Assembly: GCF_036250695.1 (NCBI RefSeq)
Contig: NZ_CP109427.1
Coordinates: forward strand, 5,084,001-5,148,000
Direction: 5' to 3'
From: Streptomyces sp. NBC_01497
GTDB lineage: Bacteria > Actinomycetota > Actinomycetes > Streptomycetales > Streptomycetaceae
DNA length: 64,000 nt
Of the stretch, positions 9,052-62,137 are shown piece after piece. The position numbers and the translations under genes were made by a program. Each line of letters opens with the position of its first letter. Within the stretch, counting starts at the first letter, position 1. The notes under the pieces are model-generated. The model made no database searches and was not told where the DNA came from. It saw nothing but the letters and a program-made list of their open reading frames with translations.

Positions 9052-10902
<1,851 letters not shown>

Positions 10903-26002: not shown

Positions 26003-26088
26003 GCCCGGATGGTGGAATGCAGACACGGCGAGCTTAAACCTCGCTGCCCTCAGTGGGCGTGCCGGTTCAAGTCCGGCTCCGGGCACCA
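26003..26088 (+). tRNA. bldA: tRNA-Leu(UAA), the bldA tRNA
   Basis: The cloverleaf is complete. Acceptor stem GCCCGGA (26003-26009) pairs with TCCGGGC (26078-26084), followed by discriminator A and an encoded CCA. The anticodon stem GCGAG/CTCGC encloses loop CTTAAAC with anticodon TAA (26035-26037). A long variable arm marks a class II leucine tRNA, and the T arm contains GGTTCAAGTCC. In Streptomyces the only tRNA reading UUA is bldA, and its loss blocks aerial growth and antibiotic production. Sequence and structure match what I recall of S. coelicolor bldA. TTA-bearing genes of this window are all in the polysaccharide cluster at 54.6-60.3 kb. Confidence 0.98.
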
Positions 26089-32106: not shown

Positions 32107-32337
32107 TCAGAGCAGACGGCGGGCCGCCCGCCTCAGATCGTGTTCGTGGACGATCGCCTTCGCGTGTCCGTAGGAGAGGTCGTGCTCGCCACGCAGCCAG
32201 CTGACCTTCTCCTCGAAGCGGACGAGGGCCGGACCTTCGTCGAGCGCACGCAGCCACTCCGAGACGCCTCGGCCGGTGCACTGCGGGATGTGGGAGAGCA
32301 GATTGCGATGGGTCTCTTCGGAGAAGACAAGGGACAT
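32107..32337 (-). CDS. DUF4287 domain protein
   Basis: 76 residues, almost all one helical domain: SEETHRNLLSHIPQCTGRGVSEWLRALDEGP followed by RFEEKVSWLRGEHDLSYGHAKAIVHEHDL. This T-G-R...EW...GP...L...H.L.HG.A..IV.E pattern is DUF4287, small cytosolic actinobacterial proteins of unknown role. The start at 32337 has GGAGG 7 bases upstream. The frame continues 117 bases further but without family character. Its 3' end faces the Bax-inhibitor gene, with the shared terminator between. Confidence 0.85.
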   Translation of the reverse strand: MSLVFSEETHRNLLSHIPQCTGRGVSEWLRALDEGPALVRFEEKVSWLRGEHDLSYGHAKAIVHEHDLRRAARRLL

Positions 32338-32472
32338 CGGCGCCTCCGGACGCGTCGCGCGTACTGGTGCAGCGGCGGCCGCAGATGAAGCGGCCGTTAA
32401 CGACACCGTGCCTGAGCGTTCGCCCGTTGGCAACAGTCCCGGCCTCTTTCCCACCGTTCGTGGCGGGCCGCG

Positions 32473-54109: not shown

Positions 54110-54579
54110 CCTGACGGCGTCTCAGGACGGGGGCGACCGCCTCAGCCGAACGTGATGACGCCGCGCCCGTGGGAGGTGTGGGCGTCCATGGCGTCCAGCA
54201 CCGGGGGAACAGCGTCCAGGCCCACCACGTGGCATCGGGCAGGATGGTGTGCCGCGCGGAGGAGCCGGGAGCGTCCCGGAGGCCGTGCGGCGGACCCGGG
54301 GGCGGGGCCATGACGTGCAGCCGGAAGAGCACCATCGGCTGGGCGTTGGGCGCCAGGGGGTCATGGGCGTAGCCGCATCGAGCCTTAATGGGATCGAAGT
54401 CCTGTCAGTCGGCTTCCCGTCGTTCCTCTTCGGGCCTGTGCCGCACAACAGTTGACCCGTACACCCCTCGCGTCCCATCCGTCCCACTCGAAAGGCGGAG
54501 CCCTGTCCCCTGCGGATTTGGGCCGGTAACGTCCTGTTCCGCATGCGGGCGCCGCGGGGAAGGTGGGCCCGCGGGGGGA
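54110..54579. other. Spacer with a possible dehydrogenase remnant
   Basis: 470 bases. Contains the short fragment described at 54142-54240 and nothing else I can support. The short dyad CCTGA...TCAGG follows the hutI stop. Confidence 0.4.
54142..54240 (-). pseudogene. Possible remnant of a zinc-type dehydrogenase C terminus
   Basis: One minus-strand frame reads HVVGLDAVPPVLDAMDAHTS followed by HGRGVITFG and a stop. This resembles the last 30 residues of medium-chain dehydrogenases or reductases (VxPVxDAMxxHxxxGRxVIT). Nothing upstream in the same frame continues the family. It could equally be chance. Confidence 0.25.
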
Positions 54580-55749
54580 ATGGGGCGACAGCCCCGCGAC
54601 CGGGGGGTCGAGTTGAGCGTTGTACGCGGTGCTGTGCGTATACGGGTGGTCGCGCCGGGGGAGCTGGGCGAGGGCGACCTCGACGCGTGGCGTGCCTTAC
54701 GGGCGAAGTCGGGGGCTCCCATGAATCCGTTCATGGAGCCCGAGTTCAGCCGCGCCGTGGGCCGGGTGCGGCCGGCGGCGCGGGTCGCGGTGATCACGGA
54801 AGGGCCGGAGGGCACCGAAGGAACGGGAGTTCCGGGCGTGGCCGCCGAGGCCGCCGGATTCTTTCCCTACGAGACCGGACCGCTGGGCCACGGCAGGGCG
54901 ATCGGCCTCGGCGTGTCCGACAGCCAGGGTGCGGTTCTGCGGCCGGGCCTGTCGCTCACCGCCCGGGATCTGATGCGCGCGTGCTCACTGTCGGCCTGGG
55001 AGTTCGACAACCTCGAAGACGGTCAGACGCCCTTCGTGCCCCAGGCGGCGGAGGAGTTCGACTCGCCGATCGTGGACGTGGGGGAGGGCTTCGAGGCGTA
55101 CGAGGCGGGGCTGCGCGAACGGTCGCCGAAGTTTTACCGGACGACCACGGCCAAGGAACGCAGGCTGGGGCGGCAGGTGGGCGAGGTCCGGTTCGTCTTC
55201 GACGAGCGCGATCCGGCCGCACTGGCACAGCTCATGGAGTGGAAGTCGGCGCAGTACCGGCGCACGGGCCGCCGCGACCGGTTCGCCAAGGACTGGATCC
55301 GCGACCTGGTGCACCTGCTGGCCGAGACGCGCAGCCCGGGCTGCTCCGGCGTGCTGAGCGTGCTGTACGTGGGTGACCGGCCGGTCGCCGCGCACTTCGG
55401 CCTGCGCTCGCGGTCCGTACTGTCGTGCTGGTTCCCCGCGTACGAGACGGAGTTCGCGAAGTACTCCCCCGGTCTCATCCTCCACCTGCGGATGGCGGAG
55501 GCGGCGGCGGCCGAGGGCATCGGGATGCTCGACCTCGGCCGGGGAGCCGCGGAGTACAAGGACTCGCTCAAGACGGGCGCGCTGAAGGTCTACGAGGGAT
55601 CGGCGGTGCGCCCGGGGGCGCGTGCCGCCCTGTACCGGCTGAGCAGGGAGCCCTCCAGGCGGGCCCACAGCTTCGTCAGGACCAGGCCCCGGCTCGCCTC
55701 CTTCGCCCAGAGCACGCTGAACCAGGTGGGCAGGATCCGCGATCGCTGA
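54580..55749 (+). CDS. GNAT/FemAB-like acyltransferase (CelD/BcsL family), TTA-containing
   Basis: 389 residues, cytosolic. Double GNAT fold of the CelD/BcsL family, often found with polysaccharide clusters: PMNPFMEPEFSRAVGRVRP, ACSLSAWEFDNLEDGQ, KFYRTTTAKERRLGRQVGEVRFVFDERDP, ALAQLMEWKSAQYRRTGRRDRF, SVLYVGDRPVAAHFGLRS and MLDLGRGAAEYKDSLKTGA. Likely attaches an acyl group to a sugar or precursor. A TTA leucine codon lies at 54697-54699 (codon 40), so translation should need bldA tRNA. The start is uncertain: ATG 54580, or TTG at 54613 further in. First gene of the polysaccharide cluster. Confidence 0.85.
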   Translation: MGRQPRDRGVELSVVRGAVRIRVVAPGELGEGDLDAWRALRAKSGAPMNPFMEPEFSRAVGRVRPAARVAVITEGPEGTEGTGVPGVAAEAAGFFPYETGPLGHGRAIGLGVSDSQGAVLRPGLSLTARDLMRACSLSAWEFDNLEDGQTPFVPQAAEEFDSPIVDVGEGFEAYEAGLRERSPKFYRTTTAKERRLGRQVGEVRFVFDERDPAALAQLMEWKSAQYRRTGRRDRFAKDWIRDLVHLLAETRSPGCSGVLSVLYVGDRPVAAHFGLRSRSVLSCWFPAYETEFAKYSPGLILHLRMAEAAAAEGIGMLDLGRGAAEYKDSLKTGALKVYEGSAVRPGARAALYRLSREPSRRAHSFVRTRPRLASFAQSTLNQVGRIRDR

Positions 55750-56120
55750 CGGACGTCCCGACGGCGCGCGAACCGAGGTGAGGGCCTTCGATGGGTCGAG
55801 AACAGCGCGTGACCAAGGGGCCGAAGCTCCGTACGGGTACGGCGGCAGGACCAGCACCCGGCGCATCGGCACCGCACGTGAGGAGCGCCGCCGGTGCGTG
55901 TCGCGCCTACGGCGCGATACGCACTCCCCACGCGATTCGCACGGACAGCACGGACAGCACGGACAGCACGGACAGCACGGAGAGAACGAACAGCACGAAC
56001 GGAACAAACAGTACGAACGGCACGGGCGGAACGAACAGTGCGGAGAACCAGAACCCGCAGCCGGCACGCCCAGCACGTCCAGCACAGCCGGCACTTTCAG
56101 CGCCGTACCAAGGGGGGACC
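55750..56120. other. Leader region of the glycosyltransferase gene
   Basis: 371 bases. The frame of the glycosyltransferase is open from an ATG at 55791, which has a fair ribosome site (GAGGTGAGGG), and would add about 110 Ser/Thr/Asn-rich residues. The lower third-position GC argues against this. Contains a 9-bp tandem repeat at 55941-55976. Confidence 0.45.
55941..55976. repeat. 9-bp tandem repeat, four exact copies
   Basis: ACGGACAGC at 55941, 55950, 55959 and 55968, decaying into AACGAACAG-type units to about 56041. The period keeps the downstream frame and would encode Thr-Asp-Ser repeats. Confidence 0.9.
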
Positions 56121-57530
56121 ATGCCGTACCGGGATCTGCCGCCGCAGTTACCACCTCGTGCCGGGCGCGCCTCGCGCGAGCACGACGCGGTGAACACGGG
56201 TGCGGCGGCGGCGTCGCGGCCCTCCGCGATCGCCGTCGTCGACCTCGATCTGGCGGCCCCGGGCGGGCCTGTGCTCTCCTGCACGCCGGCGCCGGGGGGC
56301 CCCGAGCCACTTCCGGGCGGTGACGTGTACGCGCTGGTCCGCCTGCGGGGCAGACCGGTCGGCACGGTACGTGTGCGCGTCCCGGCGGACGGGGATCCGG
56401 CCGAGGCGCTCGTCGCCGCCCACCGCGCCGGCCACCGCGGCGAGGAGGCCGCGACGGCGGGTGCCGCCGCGCCGGGGACGGCGGGAATAGCGCCGCGAAC
56501 GACCGTCGTCGTCGCCACGCGCGAGCGTGCGGGCCGTCTCGCGCGCGCCCTCACCTCGCTCCTCGCGCAGGACCATCCGGACTTCCGGGTCCTCGTGGTG
56601 GACAACGCACCGACCACCACCGCCACCCACGACCTCGTGACGGGGTCGTTCGCCGGACGCGTCGACTATGTGCGGGAACCCGTCCCGGGGCTCGCGACCG
56701 CACACAACCGGGGCCTCGCGAGTGTCCCGCAGGACACGGAGGTCGTCGCGTTCACCGACGACGACGTCGTGGCCGATCCGCACTGGCTCACGGCCCTGAC
56801 CGTGCCGTTCACGACGGATCCGCGCCTCGGCTGTGCGACGGGCCTCATCCTGCCGGCGCGGCTGGGCACTCCCGCCCAGATCCTCCTGGAGAGCCACGGC
56901 GGCTTCGCCAAGGGGTTCACACCCCGGCTCTACGATCCGGCGCGACCGCCCGCCGACGAGCCGCTGTTCCCGTTCACGGCCGGCAGCTTCGGTTCCGGCG
57001 CCAACATGGCCTTCCGTACGGGCGCGCTGCGTTCGGTCGGCGGCTTCGACCCGGCCACCGGCACGGGCACACCCGCGCGGGGCGGTGACGACCTGTACGG
57101 GTTCGTCAGGGTCCTCGGCGCGGGACACCGGTTGCTGTACACGCCGGACGCGCTCGTGTGGCACCACCACCGGGAGACCTGGCAGGACCTCAGGAACCAG
57201 GCGTACGGGTACGGGGCCGGTCTGACGGCGTATCTCACCGCTGTCCTCGTGCGGCAGCCGGCGCTGCTGCCCTCGCTGCTCCGCAGGCTCCCGCGCGGAC
57301 TGGCGCACGCCCGCGCGATCACGGCGCACCGGCCGGAGGCCGTCGCGAGCGTGACGACCGGCCCGGGGGAGCCCGACGGGCCCGGCGCACCGGCGGCGCC
57401 CGGTGCGCACGGGGCACAGGGACACCCGTGGCCCCGCTCACTGTCCCGGCTCGAACGCCGGGGCATGCTCTACGGGCCCCTCGGCTACCTCACGGCGCGC
57501 GTGGCGCGGCGCGGGGGGCGGCGGTCGTGA
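56121..57530 (+). CDS. Family 2 glycosyltransferase, TTA-containing
   Basis: 469 residues. After about 120 residues with a strand-rich N-terminal part (IAVVDLDLAAPGGPVLSC), the GT-A domain runs from TTVVVATRERAGRLARALTSLLAQ through the UDP-binding VLVVDNAP, the DxD motif AFTDDDVVADP and AGSFGSGANMAFRT to GGDDLYGFVRVLGAG. The C terminus has LVWHHHRETWQDLRNQAYGYGAGLTAYL. A processive or branching transferase for a polysaccharide is likely; the donor sugar is unknown. A TTA codon at 56148-56150 is codon 10. Start 56121 follows GGGGGG; an upstream start at 55791 is possible. Overlaps the deacetylase gene by 4 bases. Confidence 0.88.
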   Translation: MPYRDLPPQLPPRAGRASREHDAVNTGAAAASRPSAIAVVDLDLAAPGGPVLSCTPAPGGPEPLPGGDVYALVRLRGRPVGTVRVRVPADGDPAEALVAAHRAGHRGEEAATAGAAAPGTAGIAPRTTVVVATRERAGRLARALTSLLAQDHPDFRVLVVDNAPTTTATHDLVTGSFAGRVDYVREPVPGLATAHNRGLASVPQDTEVVAFTDDDVVADPHWLTALTVPFTTDPRLGCATGLILPARLGTPAQILLESHGGFAKGFTPRLYDPARPPADEPLFPFTAGSFGSGANMAFRTGALRSVGGFDPATGTGTPARGGDDLYGFVRVLGAGHRLLYTPDALVWHHHRETWQDLRNQAYGYGAGLTAYLTAVLVRQPALLPSLLRRLPRGLAHARAITAHRPEAVASVTTGPGEPDGPGAPAAPGAHGAQGHPWPRSLSRLERRGMLYGPLGYLTARVARRGGRRS

Positions 57531-58318
57531 CAGTCGTTCCGGTCCTCCTGTACCACGCCGTGATGGCCGACCCGCCCGACTGGATCGCCGAGTTCACCGT
57601 CGATCCGGGGATGTTCGCGGCCCAGCTGGACGCCGTGGTGGCGAGCGGCCGCACACCGCTCACCGTGGGCGCGTTCGCGGACGGGCTCGCGGGACGCGGG
57701 GAGCTTCCCGCCAGGCCCGTCGTGCTGACCTTCGACGACGGCTTCGCCGACCTGCCGGGGCCGACGGCGGAACTCCTGGCGAAGCGCTCACTCCCGGCCA
57801 CCGCGTATCTCACGACGGGCGCGGTGACACCGGGCCGCGGCAGTCTGCTCCCGCCGGCGCCGATGATGTCCCTCGCGCAGGCGGCCGGGCTGGAGAAGTA
57901 CGGGATCGAGGTCGGCGCCCACACCGTCACGCATCCCCAGCTCGACACCCTCTCCGCGAGCGAACTCCGCCGCGAACTGCGCGAGTCGAAGGATGCCCTT
58001 CAGGACGCCCTCGGACACGCGGTGGATCACCTCGCCTACCCGCACGGCTACAACAGCCGCGCGGTGCGGGCCGCCGCAGCGGCCGCCGGATACGCGTCCG
58101 CGGTCGCCGTTCGGCACGCGCTGAGTTCGATGGCCGACGAGCCGTTGCGGATAGCGCGGCTCATCCTGCGCCGGTCGCACACGGCGAGGGACGTTGCCGC
58201 GTGGATGGCAGGGGAGGGTGCCAGGGTGGCGCCGTTCCCCGACGCGCCCAGGACCGTCGGCTGGCGGCTCTACCGCCGGGCCCGCGCGCGGGTGCGCGGA
58301 CCGGAGTTCGCGGGGTAG
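57527..58318 (+). CDS. Polysaccharide deacetylase (CE4 family)
   Basis: 263 residues. NodB fold without a signal peptide: PVLLYHAVMADPPDWIAEFTVDPGMF, catalytic and metal-binding VVLTFDDGFADLPG, HTVTHPQLDTLS (His pair) and LAYPHGYNSRAVRAAAAAAGYASAVAV. The C-terminal ending VGWRLYRRARARVRG is basic. It would de-N-acetylate a sugar polymer or precursor. Coupled to the glycosyltransferase gene by a GTGA overlap, so both probably act on the same glycan. No TTA codon. Confidence 0.9.
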   Translation: MTVVPVLLYHAVMADPPDWIAEFTVDPGMFAAQLDAVVASGRTPLTVGAFADGLAGRGELPARPVVLTFDDGFADLPGPTAELLAKRSLPATAYLTTGAVTPGRGSLLPPAPMMSLAQAAGLEKYGIEVGAHTVTHPQLDTLSASELRRELRESKDALQDALGHAVDHLAYPHGYNSRAVRAAAAAAGYASAVAVRHALSSMADEPLRIARLILRRSHTARDVAAWMAGEGARVAPFPDAPRTVGWRLYRRARARVRGPEFAG

Positions 58319-58426
58319 CGGGCGGGGACGAGGCACGGCGGCGGCCCGACGCGGCGCAGCCGGGGCGGGAACGCGGACAGGGCAGAGGGCCGGGCACCAC
58401 CGACACACATCAGGGGGAGCAGGACC

Positions 58427-60313
58427 GTGGCACAGCATGAGATGTCCACGCCGGGCGCAGCGCGCGGCACGCTGACGCGGGAGGGAGCCAGACGCCTCCC
58501 GGTCGGTCCCGGCCGGCTGCTGACGTGGCTGCCGTTACCCGTCGGCGCGGCCCTGTGGGCCTGGTCGCTGCCGAAGATCCGCTTTCACGACCTGGGGGAC
58601 TTCGGTCTGCTCGACCGCTTCCCCATCGCCTTCTACGCCTCGCTCGCTGTCCTCACCGTCGGCTTCATCGCCTCGCTGCGCCGGGCCGGCACGGCTCCGT
58701 GGTGGCCGCTGACGTACAGCCTGGGGATGCTGTTCGCACTGAAGGCACCCACAGCGCTGTTGTACGACACGGTCCGCTACGCGTGGGCGTCCAAACACGA
58801 CGCGGTCATCGCCCGCCTGCTCACCGAAGGCACGGTCCATCCGCACCACACGCTGAACGGCGGCATGTCCGCCTACGACCAGTGGCCGGGCTTCTTCTCC
58901 CTCAACGCGGCCCTCATCCGCGCCTTCGGTGTGCACGGGGCGGCCGTCTACACGAACTGGGCCCCGGTCATCTACGGCGCCCTGATGCTGCCGATCCTCG
59001 TCCTGATCTACCGCACGTTCACCGACGACTGGCGGCTCGTGTGGACGGCGGTGTGGATCTTCCAGCTTGCCAACTGGGTGGGTCAGGACTACCTCTCGCC
59101 GCAGGGCTTCGCCTATGTGCTGTTCCTCGCCGTCTTCGCGGTGGTGCTGCGCAACTTCGTCCGGCCGGGCACGGCGGGCCGGCTGCGGGAGCGGGACGCG
59201 CTCGATCCCGCGGCGGCGCCCGTCCCGCCGTCGACCACCTGGCAGCAGCGGGCCGTCGGTGTCGTGCTGCTGGCGCCGCTGATCGCCGCGATCAACGCCG
59301 CCCACCAACTGACGCCCGTCATGCTGTGTGTGACGCTGCTCGCGTTCTGCCTGACCCGGCGCTACCGCAACATCGGACTGTTCGTCGTCGCCGTCGTCAT
59401 CATGGGCGTCTGGGACCTGACGATGGGCAGAGCGCTGTTCGTCGACACGATGAAGACGCTGAGCGGGCAGCTCGGCGACCTGCTCAGCAACGCGAAGCCC
59501 GGCATCGGCGGCAACCCCACGGGCGAGGGCGCCGAACTGGTCGGCGTGGTCAACATCGTGATGGTGGTGTCCCTCGGAGTGCTCGCCGTGGCGGCCGTGC
59601 TGCTGCGCCGCCGCCTCGCCAGGTCGGCGCTCCCGCTGCTGCTCGCCGCCGTCGCGCCGGCGCCGCTGCTCGCCGTGAACAACTACGGCGGCGAAATGGT
59701 CTTCCGTGTCTACCTGTTCGGTCTGCCCGGCTCGGCGTTCTTCGCCGCCGCCGCGCTGGTGCCGTCCGTGGCGTACGCGGGCAGGGCCCGCAGGATCGCG
59801 CAGCGCGTCATGGTCGTGGCGCTGCCGGCGGGGGTGCTCGTCCTGCTCGCCGGATTCCTTCCGTCGTACTACGGCAAGGAGGACATGCAGTACGCGCCCC
59901 CGCAGGAGGTCGCCTTCGTGGAGCACGCCTACGACCGGGCGCCGGTCGGGTCGCTCGTCATGGCCGCCACGGGATCGTTCCCCGGCGCGTACTACCACTA
60001 CAACCACTACGACCACTGGTTCTTCACCGAGCAGGACGCGGCGGCCAACAAGCAGTTGCTCAAGGACCCGGGCGACTACCTGGCGGAGGGCATACCCGCG
60101 GGTTGTCCTGCCTTCATCCTCCTGACTCCGACGCAGGGCGAAGCCGTGCAGGGCGAGGGCTATCTGCCGCCGGGCGGCTACAACAAACTGGTCGCGGCGC
60201 TGAAGGTCTCCCCGCACTTCAAGATCGTCGAGGACACCAGCCATGGGCTGCTGCTCCAGCACCTTCCGGTGCCGACGAAGGCCGAGTCCCTGCCGTCCGA
60301 TGTCGAACCCTGA
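58427..60313 (+). CDS. Polytopic membrane protein, GT-C-like, TTA-containing
   Basis: 628 residues with about 12-13 membrane segments between residues 25 and 480 (for example WLPLPVGAALWAWSL, FAYVLFLAVFAVVL, NIGLFVVAVVIMGVWDLTM, RVMVVALPAGVLVLLAGFLP). A C-terminal extracytoplasmic domain of about 150 residues follows (YDRAPVGSLVMAATGSFPGAYYHYNHYDHWFF). The layout is that of GT-C glycosyltransferases or polymerases; no classical DxD or WWDYG motif was recognised. A candidate polymerase or lipid-linked sugar transferase of the cluster. A TTA codon at 58535-58537 is codon 37. GTG 58427 was chosen because GGGGAGCAGG lies upstream; ATG 58442 is another option. Confidence 0.82.
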   Translation: MAQHEMSTPGAARGTLTREGARRLPVGPGRLLTWLPLPVGAALWAWSLPKIRFHDLGDFGLLDRFPIAFYASLAVLTVGFIASLRRAGTAPWWPLTYSLGMLFALKAPTALLYDTVRYAWASKHDAVIARLLTEGTVHPHHTLNGGMSAYDQWPGFFSLNAALIRAFGVHGAAVYTNWAPVIYGALMLPILVLIYRTFTDDWRLVWTAVWIFQLANWVGQDYLSPQGFAYVLFLAVFAVVLRNFVRPGTAGRLRERDALDPAAAPVPPSTTWQQRAVGVVLLAPLIAAINAAHQLTPVMLCVTLLAFCLTRRYRNIGLFVVAVVIMGVWDLTMGRALFVDTMKTLSGQLGDLLSNAKPGIGGNPTGEGAELVGVVNIVMVVSLGVLAVAAVLLRRRLARSALPLLLAAVAPAPLLAVNNYGGEMVFRVYLFGLPGSAFFAAAALVPSVAYAGRARRIAQRVMVVALPAGVLVLLAGFLPSYYGKEDMQYAPPQEVAFVEHAYDRAPVGSLVMAATGSFPGAYYHYNHYDHWFFTEQDAAANKQLLKDPGDYLAEGIPAGCPAFILLTPTQGEAVQGEGYLPPGGYNKLVAALKVSPHFKIVEDTSHGLLLQHLPVPTKAESLPSDVEP

Positions 60314-60602: not shown

Positions 60603-61019
60603 ATGAACCGCACACAGGCACAGCTCAGAGCAGTCCTCGCACTGTCAGGATGGGTCGCTCTCGGCGCGACGCTGCTGCCCGCCGGGGCATTTCTGCGCTG
60701 GGCCCCCATCCTGCTGTTCGTCACCTTCGGCCCGGGGCTCGCTCTCCTGCACCCCCAGCCCGTCGCCTCCCGTCCGGCGGCCCGCCTGGAGACACTGGCG
60801 CTGGCGGCACCACTGAGCTGGTCGCTGGCGACGCTCGCGGCGACGGCACTGTTCCTGGTGCAGGGTTTCTCGGCGACGGTTTTCCTGATCTCGCTCGCCG
60901 CGTTCTGCACGGTGGCGGCACTGCTGCCCGGACTGCCGCTCCCGGCGGCGATACGCGCGGCCGGTGACGAGTCCGCGGAGGCGGCCGGCGCGGGGACCGG
61001 CGCGGGCGGAGAGCCCTGA
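60603..61019 (+). CDS. Small membrane protein of the polysaccharide cluster
   Basis: 138 residues with three to four membrane helices: LRAVLALSGWVALGATLLPAG, WAPILLFVTFGPGLALL, LETLALAAPLSWSLATLAATALFLV and TVFLISLAAFCTVAALLPGL. The FGPGLALL motif resembles small membrane proteins next to glycosyltransferases in actinobacteria. The C-terminal tail is Ala/Gly-rich. The ATG at 60603 has AGGAG about 13 bases upstream, rather far. It is separated from the GT-C-like gene by a 289-base spacer without a gene and followed 3 bases later by the GH26-like gene. A flippase-related or accessory role is possible but unproven. Confidence 0.65.
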   Translation: MNRTQAQLRAVLALSGWVALGATLLPAGAFLRWAPILLFVTFGPGLALLHPQPVASRPAARLETLALAAPLSWSLATLAATALFLVQGFSATVFLISLAAFCTVAALLPGLPLPAAIRAAGDESAEAAGAGTGAGGEP

Positions 61020-61021
61020 GC

Positions 61022-62137
61022 ATGAGGCACTCCTCGGCCAGGCCCCCGGCCAGGCCCTTCGGCCGGCCTCCGGCGCGTGGCTCCGGCGGCACGCGGCTGT
61101 TCCTCGCCCTCGCGACGGTGGGGGCGCTGCTCGCCGGGCTCGGCACCTGGTGGTTCGCCCGCTCCTCGGACCACGCCCGGCCGCCGGGCGACTGCGCGCC
61201 GACGAAACTGCTGGAGCCGCCGTGCGGGGCGTGGTGGGGAGCGTACGTGCCGTACGCGTCGAACGGCTCGCTCACCGACGCCGTGCTCAGCTTCGAGCAG
61301 AAGATCGGCCGCAGGCTCGACCTGGTGTACACGTACCACGACATGTCCAACACCCAGCGCGACGGCGTGCTGCTGACGCCCGACGAACGCCGGCTCGGCG
61401 AGGACCGGATGCTGATGCTCGCGTGGGAGTCGACGGTCTGGACGGAGCCGCACCACAGGAACTACACGCAGACACAACTGGGCTGGGCGCGGGTGGCCGC
61501 CGGGGACTTCGACCGGACGATCATCGATCCGCAGGCGGAGCGCATCAAGAAGTACGGGAAGACGATCTTCTTCTCCTTCGACCAGGAGGCGGACTTCCGT
61601 ACGCCCGACGCGGGCACCCCGGCGGAGTTCATCGCCGCCTACCGTCATGTGCACGACCGCTTCGCGCAGTTGGGCGTCAACAACGTGATCTGGGTCTGGA
61701 CCGTGTCGGGCTACCTCGGCCACACGTCGCAGATGAAGGCGCTGTACCCGGGAGACGCGTACGTCGACTGGATCGGCATGGACCAGTACAACTACTACCT
61801 CTGCCACAAGTCGCCGGACTGGCTGGACTTCCGGCAGAGCCAGCAACCCGCCTACGACTGGCTGCGGAAGAACATCTCGGCGACCAAGCCGATCATGATG
61901 TCGGAGTTCAGCACGGCCCCCGACCCGGCCGACCCGGACCGGCAGAAGGGCTGGTACGAGCAGATACCGAAGGCCGCCCCAGAACTTCCGGGCGTCAAGG
62001 CCATGGTGCAGTGGGACAGCCCGGTCCCCGGACCTGACTGCGACCTGCGGGCGGATCACGGTCCGGCCCTCCAGGGCTACCGCGAGGCCGGCGGGGCCCC
62101 CTACGTGAACCAGCCGCTGCCGGCGCAGGTGCGCTGA
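61022..62137 (+). CDS. GH26-like glycoside hydrolase, membrane-anchored
   Basis: 371 residues. An N-terminal anchor (RLFLALATVGALLAGLGTWWF) follows a basic cytoplasmic tail. The TIM barrel begins at CGAWWGAYVPYASNGSLTDAV. It shows FFSFDQEADF (proton donor Glu), IWVWTVSGYL, YPGDAYVDWIGMDQYNYYL and MMSEFSTA (nucleophile Glu), as in GH26 mannanases and related enzymes. In a synthesis cluster it may trim or release the polymer. Substrate mannan is inferred from family only. Starts 3 bases after the small membrane protein stop. A terminator lies 27 bases downstream. Confidence 0.88.
   Translation: MRHSSARPPARPFGRPPARGSGGTRLFLALATVGALLAGLGTWWFARSSDHARPPGDCAPTKLLEPPCGAWWGAYVPYASNGSLTDAVLSFEQKIGRRLDLVYTYHDMSNTQRDGVLLTPDERRLGEDRMLMLAWESTVWTEPHHRNYTQTQLGWARVAAGDFDRTIIDPQAERIKKYGKTIFFSFDQEADFRTPDAGTPAEFIAAYRHVHDRFAQLGVNNVIWVWTVSGYLGHTSQMKALYPGDAYVDWIGMDQYNYYLCHKSPDWLDFRQSQQPAYDWLRKNISATKPIMMSEFSTAPDPADPDRQKGWYEQIPKAAPELPGVKAMVQWDSPVPGPDCDLRADHGPALQGYREAGGAPYVNQPLPAQVR

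Follow-up and report, generated by a model that had tools for sequence, protein, structure and literature searches.

In a 64,000-nucleotide stretch of the genome of Streptomyces sp. NBC_01497 (contig NZ_CP109427.1, positions 5,084,001 to 5,148,000; hereafter, the window), in-frame TTA codons, the rare leucine codons read by the bldA tRNA, are confined to three genes of a single cluster that appears to specify a lipid-linked surface glycan pathway. These genes encode an acyltransferase, a GT2 glycosyltransferase, and a membrane glycosyltransferase of the predicted GT-C fold (Table 1). TTA recurs in the same cluster in related species and is enriched there over the flanking genes. We interpret these observations, with a probability of about 0.6, as the mark of a surface-glycan cluster that would be under lineage-specific, bldA-dependent translation. 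The case is built on the comparison between species and not on the single genome.

TTA codons in the window and in the genome

The original prediction, made from the letters of the window, placed a tRNA-Leu(UAA) gene, bldA, at 26003-26088 and held that the genes of the window contain TTA only at 54697 (acyltransferase), 56148 (GT2), and 58535 (GT-C protein). The tRNA gene was confirmed by ARAGORN and by a search of the organism's own genome with its DNA, which gave one match at E≤0.001. Among the 61 TTA trinucleotides of the window, counted on both strands, these three are the only ones in frame in the called genes, as borne out by the gene calls and by inspection of the ribosome sites at the starts. 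The 49 automatic gene calls include only 54697 and 58535, as the caller took a late start, GTG 56325, for the GT2 gene. ATG 56121 of this gene is preceded by a AAGGGGGG ribosome site, which makes TTA 56148 its codon 10. The automatic starts of both the GT2 and the acyltransferase genes were set aside, since they removed N-termini with upstream ribosome sites or conservation. Longer starts that would add a TTA to the genes at 9496 (TTA 9541), 30927 (TTA 30978), and 46579 (TTA 46570) have no ribosome site; for the gene 32107-32454 (TTA 32400), the upstream TTG has a moderate site and the start at 32337 a stronger one. For the acyltransferase, ATG 54580 was rejected in favor of TTG 54613, which follows a conserved GACCGGGGGGTCGAG and aligns, by eye, with ATG, GTG, or TTG in relatives. 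TTG 54613 is probably the true start, so that the TTA is codon 29 and not 40 as had been proposed, whereas the numbers proposed for GT2 (codon 10) and the GT-C protein (codon 37) stand. All three codons (29, 10, and 37) are early, as predicted.

TTA is indeed rare in this genome. In the 464 kb surrounding the window, it occurs in 6 of the 353 genes called, two of these being in the cluster (GT2 was missed), and 19 stretches of 20 kb scattered over the chromosome have it in 2 of 287 genes; 26 more of the 353 genes would gain a TTA solely under the longest possible start. Outside the cluster, 6 of 633 genes in 0.84 Mb carry TTA, with codon totals of 6 TTA and 48 CTA, and a relaxed gene caller, with the cluster included, gives 10 of 672. 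At a rate of 1% per gene, the probability of at least three TTA genes among six is 2e-5, or ~0.15 per 7500 sliding windows. At 2%, ~1.1 such six-gene groups would be expected per 7500 sliding windows, that is, about one per genome, which would leave room for a chance cluster. Three TTA genes among six neighbors are thus improbable, yet possible genome-wide, and the single genome by itself is only suggestive.

Recurrence, enrichment, and turnover in orthologous loci

The comparison set comprised the best 80 of 159 related loci, with more distant loci outside it. TTA was counted under a fixed start rule, and related species are among the rows, so that p values overstate significance. TTA is present in the genes for the GT-C protein (16/80), DegT aminotransferase (14/66), acyltransferase (8/72), GT2 (8/76), a GH26-type glycoside hydrolase (8/67), a small protein (4/76), a flippase-like protein (3/68), and the polysaccharide deacetylase (1/78), and it is absent from hutI (0/46), hutF (0/44), and hutU (0/17) of the same loci. 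The first four exceed the level of recurrence in five other genomes, an arbitrary one in the available text of PMC4255298. The cluster of one species has up to four TTA genes. In the 72 loci with at least six cluster genes (8 of the 80 were dropped), 8 have at least three TTA genes, a number reached in 5 of 20000 shuffles, against 2.6 expected, while the flank genes of these eight carry TTA in 0 of 69 cases. A stricter start rule gives 7 such loci against 2.0 expected (7 of 20000 shuffles).

Further loci came from a search of 392 genomes, in which 49 proved to have a close orthologue of GT-C; 40 of these were fetched and 22 repeats of named loci were dropped. Cluster TTA is found in 9 of the remaining 18 genomes, and at least three TTA genes in 3 of them; this set, too, includes relatives (L190, L194, and L210 have TTA sites in common), and in L195 the GT-C TTA falls upstream of the homologous start. 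These 18 genomes speak against a chance cluster, as do the observed rate of ~1% and the recurrence of the pattern in other species, and we consider chance very improbable. The claim that the clustering is nonrandom is thus supported chiefly by the orthologous loci. The check suggested with it, conservation in orthologous clusters, shows that TTA recurs in the same cluster across relatives; individual codons are absent from close relatives, but TTA in the cluster as a whole is not.

Cluster genes contain 61 TTA and 56 CTA among 28874 leucine (Leu) codons (the small gene being counted in 35 loci only), compared with 8 TTA and 35 CTA among 23827 in 810 flanking genes, of which 7 carry TTA (odds ratio, 4.8; P = 1.4e-4, ignoring kinship). 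The DegT and flippase-like genes, which lie linked with the cluster at most of the loci, were regrouped into it after the many TTA codons of DegT had been seen; the initial grouping, with both among the others, gave TTA in 21 of 810 "other" genes, and without regrouping TTA is found in 33 of 443 cluster genes versus 21 of 944 others. A uniform gene caller gives 47 of 575 genes in cluster families 0-7 versus 4 of 623 in families 8-39. Within a species, cluster and flank differ little in GC content at third codon positions (GC3), which is 0.916 and 0.916, respectively, for loci with at least three TTA genes, 0.934 and 0.933 for those with one or two, and 0.953 and 0.946 for those with none. Even so, counts with automatic starts for the loci with at least three TTA genes are 15 TTA to 4 CTA in the cluster, against 0 to 3 in the flanks. 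A comparison of TTA-bearing with TTA-free clades was rejected as circular, the clades being chosen by TTA, and all-locus comparisons were used.

In the window's clade, each of the ten members has cluster TTA, at changing places (nine by the start rule and L100 by aligned codon), and some other clades of the tree are entirely TTA-free. Of the three TTA codons of the window, only that of GT2 is kept in L032 and only that of the acyltransferase in L033 and L034. In L100, the GT-C TTA lies in the same column as in the window with no start codon within range, which excludes it under the start rule; this locus has the GT-C, small, and GH26 genes, while the acyltransferase, GT2, and deacetylase genes were not found, which may reflect a rearrangement or an assembly problem. 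Numbered by window residues, the GT-C TTA columns are 23, 26, 37, 43, and 48, plus 137 and one beyond the C-terminus. Columns 23 and 26 may be a single site split by the alignment, and three of the five early columns are conserved Leu columns of the predicted helix at residues 36-50. In the first 65 codons of the acyltransferase, GT2, GT-C, and GH26 genes, pooled, TTA is more concentrated than CTA, CTT, and TTG (odds ratio, 6.6). TTG counts among conserved Leu columns are highest at acyltransferase column 40 (6 TTG of 71, with 7 TTA) and GT-C column 37 (18 TTG of 81, with 7 TTA), as though TTA and TTG interchange. The minimum number of TTA state changes on the tree is 10 for GT-C, 7 each for the acyltransferase and GT2, and 8 for DegT.

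The presence of identical TTA columns in distant species, the peaks of TTG, one step away, at those columns, and the existence of entire clades without TTA could also reflect an inherited remnant, in which ancestral TTA codons are being lost one by one and the pattern is one of decay and not of maintenance. However, the columns of one gene that bear TTA differ between clades, for which gains are the simplest account, although the change counts cannot separate gain from loss, and TTA has been kept by every member of the window's clade. Decay of this kind seems unlikely to us.

The GT2-deacetylase, small-GH26, and DegT-flippase gene pairs overlap or nearly touch (median gaps of -4, -4, and -8, respectively), and in 74 of 76 loci the deacetylase starts between -40 and +20 relative to the stop of GT2. 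TTA was found mainly in the leading genes, in 50 of 370 head-gene instances versus 12 of 213 followers in the first set, where GH26 is the exception among the followers, and in 19 of 85 versus 0 of 49 in the 18 further genomes; the counts agree only in part with a head-gene rule. As a tentative proposal, to which we give somewhat less than even odds, selection would act on whether a translationally coupled unit has a TTA anywhere at its head, and not on a fixed codon. Each species would then re-place the bldA gate among the acyltransferase, GT2, GT-C, small, and DegT genes, and seldom in the deacetylase or flippase-like genes, and the gate would be a property of the pathway, with codon-by-codon turnover.

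Several findings weigh against the view that the cluster is gated by bldA. No cluster TTA is present in 38 of the 72 loci (by the start rule, in 43 of 81 rows, some on truncated contigs), which indicates that the cluster works without bldA in many species. Under the stricter start rule, there is no clear excess of loci with at least two TTA genes (14 loci, a number reached in 3970 of 20000 shuffles). The DegT TTA codons lie mid-gene (0 within the first 65 codons and 12 later), GH26, a coupled follower, carries TTA in 8 of 67 cases, and an early TTA bias is general in streptomycetes, according to the available text of PMC4255298. Finally, the number of TTA genes drops with the GC3 of the cluster (Spearman coefficient, -0.65) and of the flank (-0.49), so that composition contributes to the pattern and sets the ease with which TTA persists. 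The greater number of TTA genes at lower GC3, together with the likewise higher early frequency of CTA, CTT, and TTG in cluster genes, would be expected from relaxed codon selection, whereby rare codons are tolerated in genes that evolve fast and are weakly expressed, and TTA builds up with no value for regulation. However, CTA shows no parallel rise: among the half of the loci with lower GC3, the TTA:CTA ratio is 39:18 in the cluster and 5:23 in the flank. The flippase-like gene has 3 TTA against 17 for GT-C, with 6955 and 7481 Leu codons, respectively, while the mean identity is 64% for both (to different reference proteins), and conserved Leu columns repeatedly carry TTA. We regard relaxed selection as a rather improbable explanation and favor bldA-dependent translation of the cluster. 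Of the interpretation originally put forward, the rarity of TTA, its nonrandom clustering, the early codons, and the glycan-type genes hold, whereas the individual codons are not fixed in close relatives.

Cluster genes and the upstream region

The Pfam families of the cluster genes support the glycan-type gene set recognized originally (Table 1), and the cluster exceeds the coordinates then given: the small and GH26 genes follow in the window, and the DegT aminotransferase and flippase-like genes lie further on. Relatives of the latter two are found in the same genome at C1:5159673-5162112, ~13.5 kb beyond GH26; in the comparison set, DegT is downstream in 66 of 80 loci and the flippase-like gene (~720 aa) in 67 of 80, nearly always on the opposite strand. 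The flippase-like gene has no match in Pfam or NCBIfam, its name being a reading of its sequence, and no initiating phosphoglycosyltransferase was found among the Pfam-scanned cluster genes, the rest of the genome not having been searched.

Table 1. Features of the window (window coordinates)
Feature	Position	Strand	Basis or remarks
tRNA-Leu(UAA), bldA	26003..26088	+	ARAGORN; own-genome search
Promoter-like conserved box CCGGTAACGTCCTGTTCC, ahead of the first gene of the cluster	54523..54540	+	Aligned with L032-L034; putative function
Conserved ribosome-site region GACCGGGGGGTCGAG	54598..54612	+	Alignment of relatives
Acetyltransf_6 (GNAT) acyltransferase, TTG start	54613..55749	+	Pfam PF13480, E 2.2e-42, scanned from 54580; start by eye
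TTA codon 29 of acyltransferase (codon 40 from ATG 54580), conserved WRxL site	54697..54699	+	Same column in L033, L034, L037, L039, L086, L094
GT2 glycosyltransferase	56121..57530	+	Pfam PF13641 and PF00535
TTA codon 10 of GT2	56148..56150	+	Same column in L032
Polysaccharide deacetylase, start overlapping GT2 stop by 4 bases	57527..58318	+	Pfam PF01522, E 3e-23
GT-C fold membrane glycosyltransferase, no Pfam family	58427..60313	+	Predicted model
TTA codon 37 of GT-C protein, first long predicted helix (residues 36-50)	58535..58537	+	Same column in L093, L095, L096, L097, L098, L100
Small protein, probably membrane-bound (by eye), no Pfam family	60603..61019	+	Present in 76/80 loci
GH26-type glycoside hydrolase	61022..62137	+	Pfam PF02156, E 2.8e-7; best PDB match Endoglucanase H, 7e-14

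The model of the GT-C protein (predicted local distance difference test [pLDDT] score, 76; predicted template modeling [pTM] score, 0.80; 29 aligned sequences) matches AftA, ArnT, and oligosaccharyltransferases, which points to a GT-C fold, although the fold search leaves room for other families. Its predicted overall fold resembles those of GT-C arabinosyltransferases, ArnT, and oligosaccharyltransferases at ~8-14% identity.

Upstream of the acyltransferase, GGTANCGT is present in 61 of 71 loci, which include both TTA-bearing and TTA-free species. Transcription control thus seems to be shared among species, whereas the putative TTA gate varies. Among the conserved boxes at 54445-54540, CGCACAACAGTTG is shared with L032-L034 only and CCGGTAACGTCCTGTTCC has a wider distribution; inspection by eye indicates a further ACCGTC-like copy in several relatives, roughly two helix turns upstream. 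The gap between the acyltransferase and GT2 contains, at 55940-56010, short ACGGACAGC-like tandem repeats.

Near the DegT/flippase half of the cluster, a gene on the minus strand (L122:14852-15304; G000:C1:5162852-5163304) encodes a 150-aa HATPase_c_2 protein with TTA at codon 54; it adjoins a helix-turn-helix gene and a small gene, which we take to be WhiJ-like and DUF397-like, respectively. Possible antisigma factors are among the frequent TTA carriers in the available text of PMC4255298. Between the cluster halves (L122:6812-9182), inspection by eye shows STAS and anti-sigma ATPase-like genes alongside a sigma-factor-like gene; the family of the latter is located beyond DegT in 48 of 80 loci.

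Proposed bldA gate and known systems

The combination of GT2 with a polysaccharide deacetylase is also seen in poly-N-acetylglucosamine (poly-GlcNAc; PgaB/IcaB) and holdfast (HfsH) systems, and an acetyltransferase is also part of holdfast clusters. Unlike those systems, the cluster described here has linked GT-C, GH26, DegT, and flippase-like genes. Its deacetylase scores below the NCBIfam equivalog cut-offs for the poly-GlcNAc and holdfast deacetylases (49.2, 27.2, and 29.4 bits versus 321.9, 248.35, and 400, respectively).

If our interpretation is correct, the cluster would build and export a lipid-linked surface polysaccharide, deacetylated or acylated. In the messages for the acyltransferase, GT2, and the GT-C protein, ribosomes would stall at the early UUA codons for as long as charged tRNA-Leu(UAA) is not plentiful. 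Via translational coupling, the deacetylase, which overlaps GT2, should likewise be gated by the UUA of GT2. Several Streptomyces lineages would keep the gate for the whole cluster, with single TTA codons coming and going, often through TTG.

Chandra and Chater (2013) listed 29 genes or clusters in which TTA is frequent, some of the clusters varying in which gene has it (PMC4255298). As far as the available text of that paper goes, the cluster studied here is alike in that TTA is found in one or another gene of shared role and is recurring but not universal. No entry in its Table 2 is described as the present gene set, judging by the descriptions, with SCO numbers unmapped and S. coelicolor not checked for the cluster. 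The cluster fits this published kind, to which its gene set and the turnover of its TTA codons are an addition. The classic bldA target, adpA, likewise has a rare TTA read by the bldA tRNA, which the same text reports in 14 of 14 genomes, whereas TTA in the cluster is lineage-specific and shifts between genes.

This analysis would connect the developmental Streptomyces tRNA bldA with one specific gene cluster of the surface-glycan type. The related clusters form a natural series, ranging from none to four TTA genes, that offers a direct testing ground for codon-level control of a pathway. If the proposed gate is real, a rare-codon switch would have been retained by a pathway despite the turnover of its individual codons, and the coat would be made only when the bldA tRNA is available.

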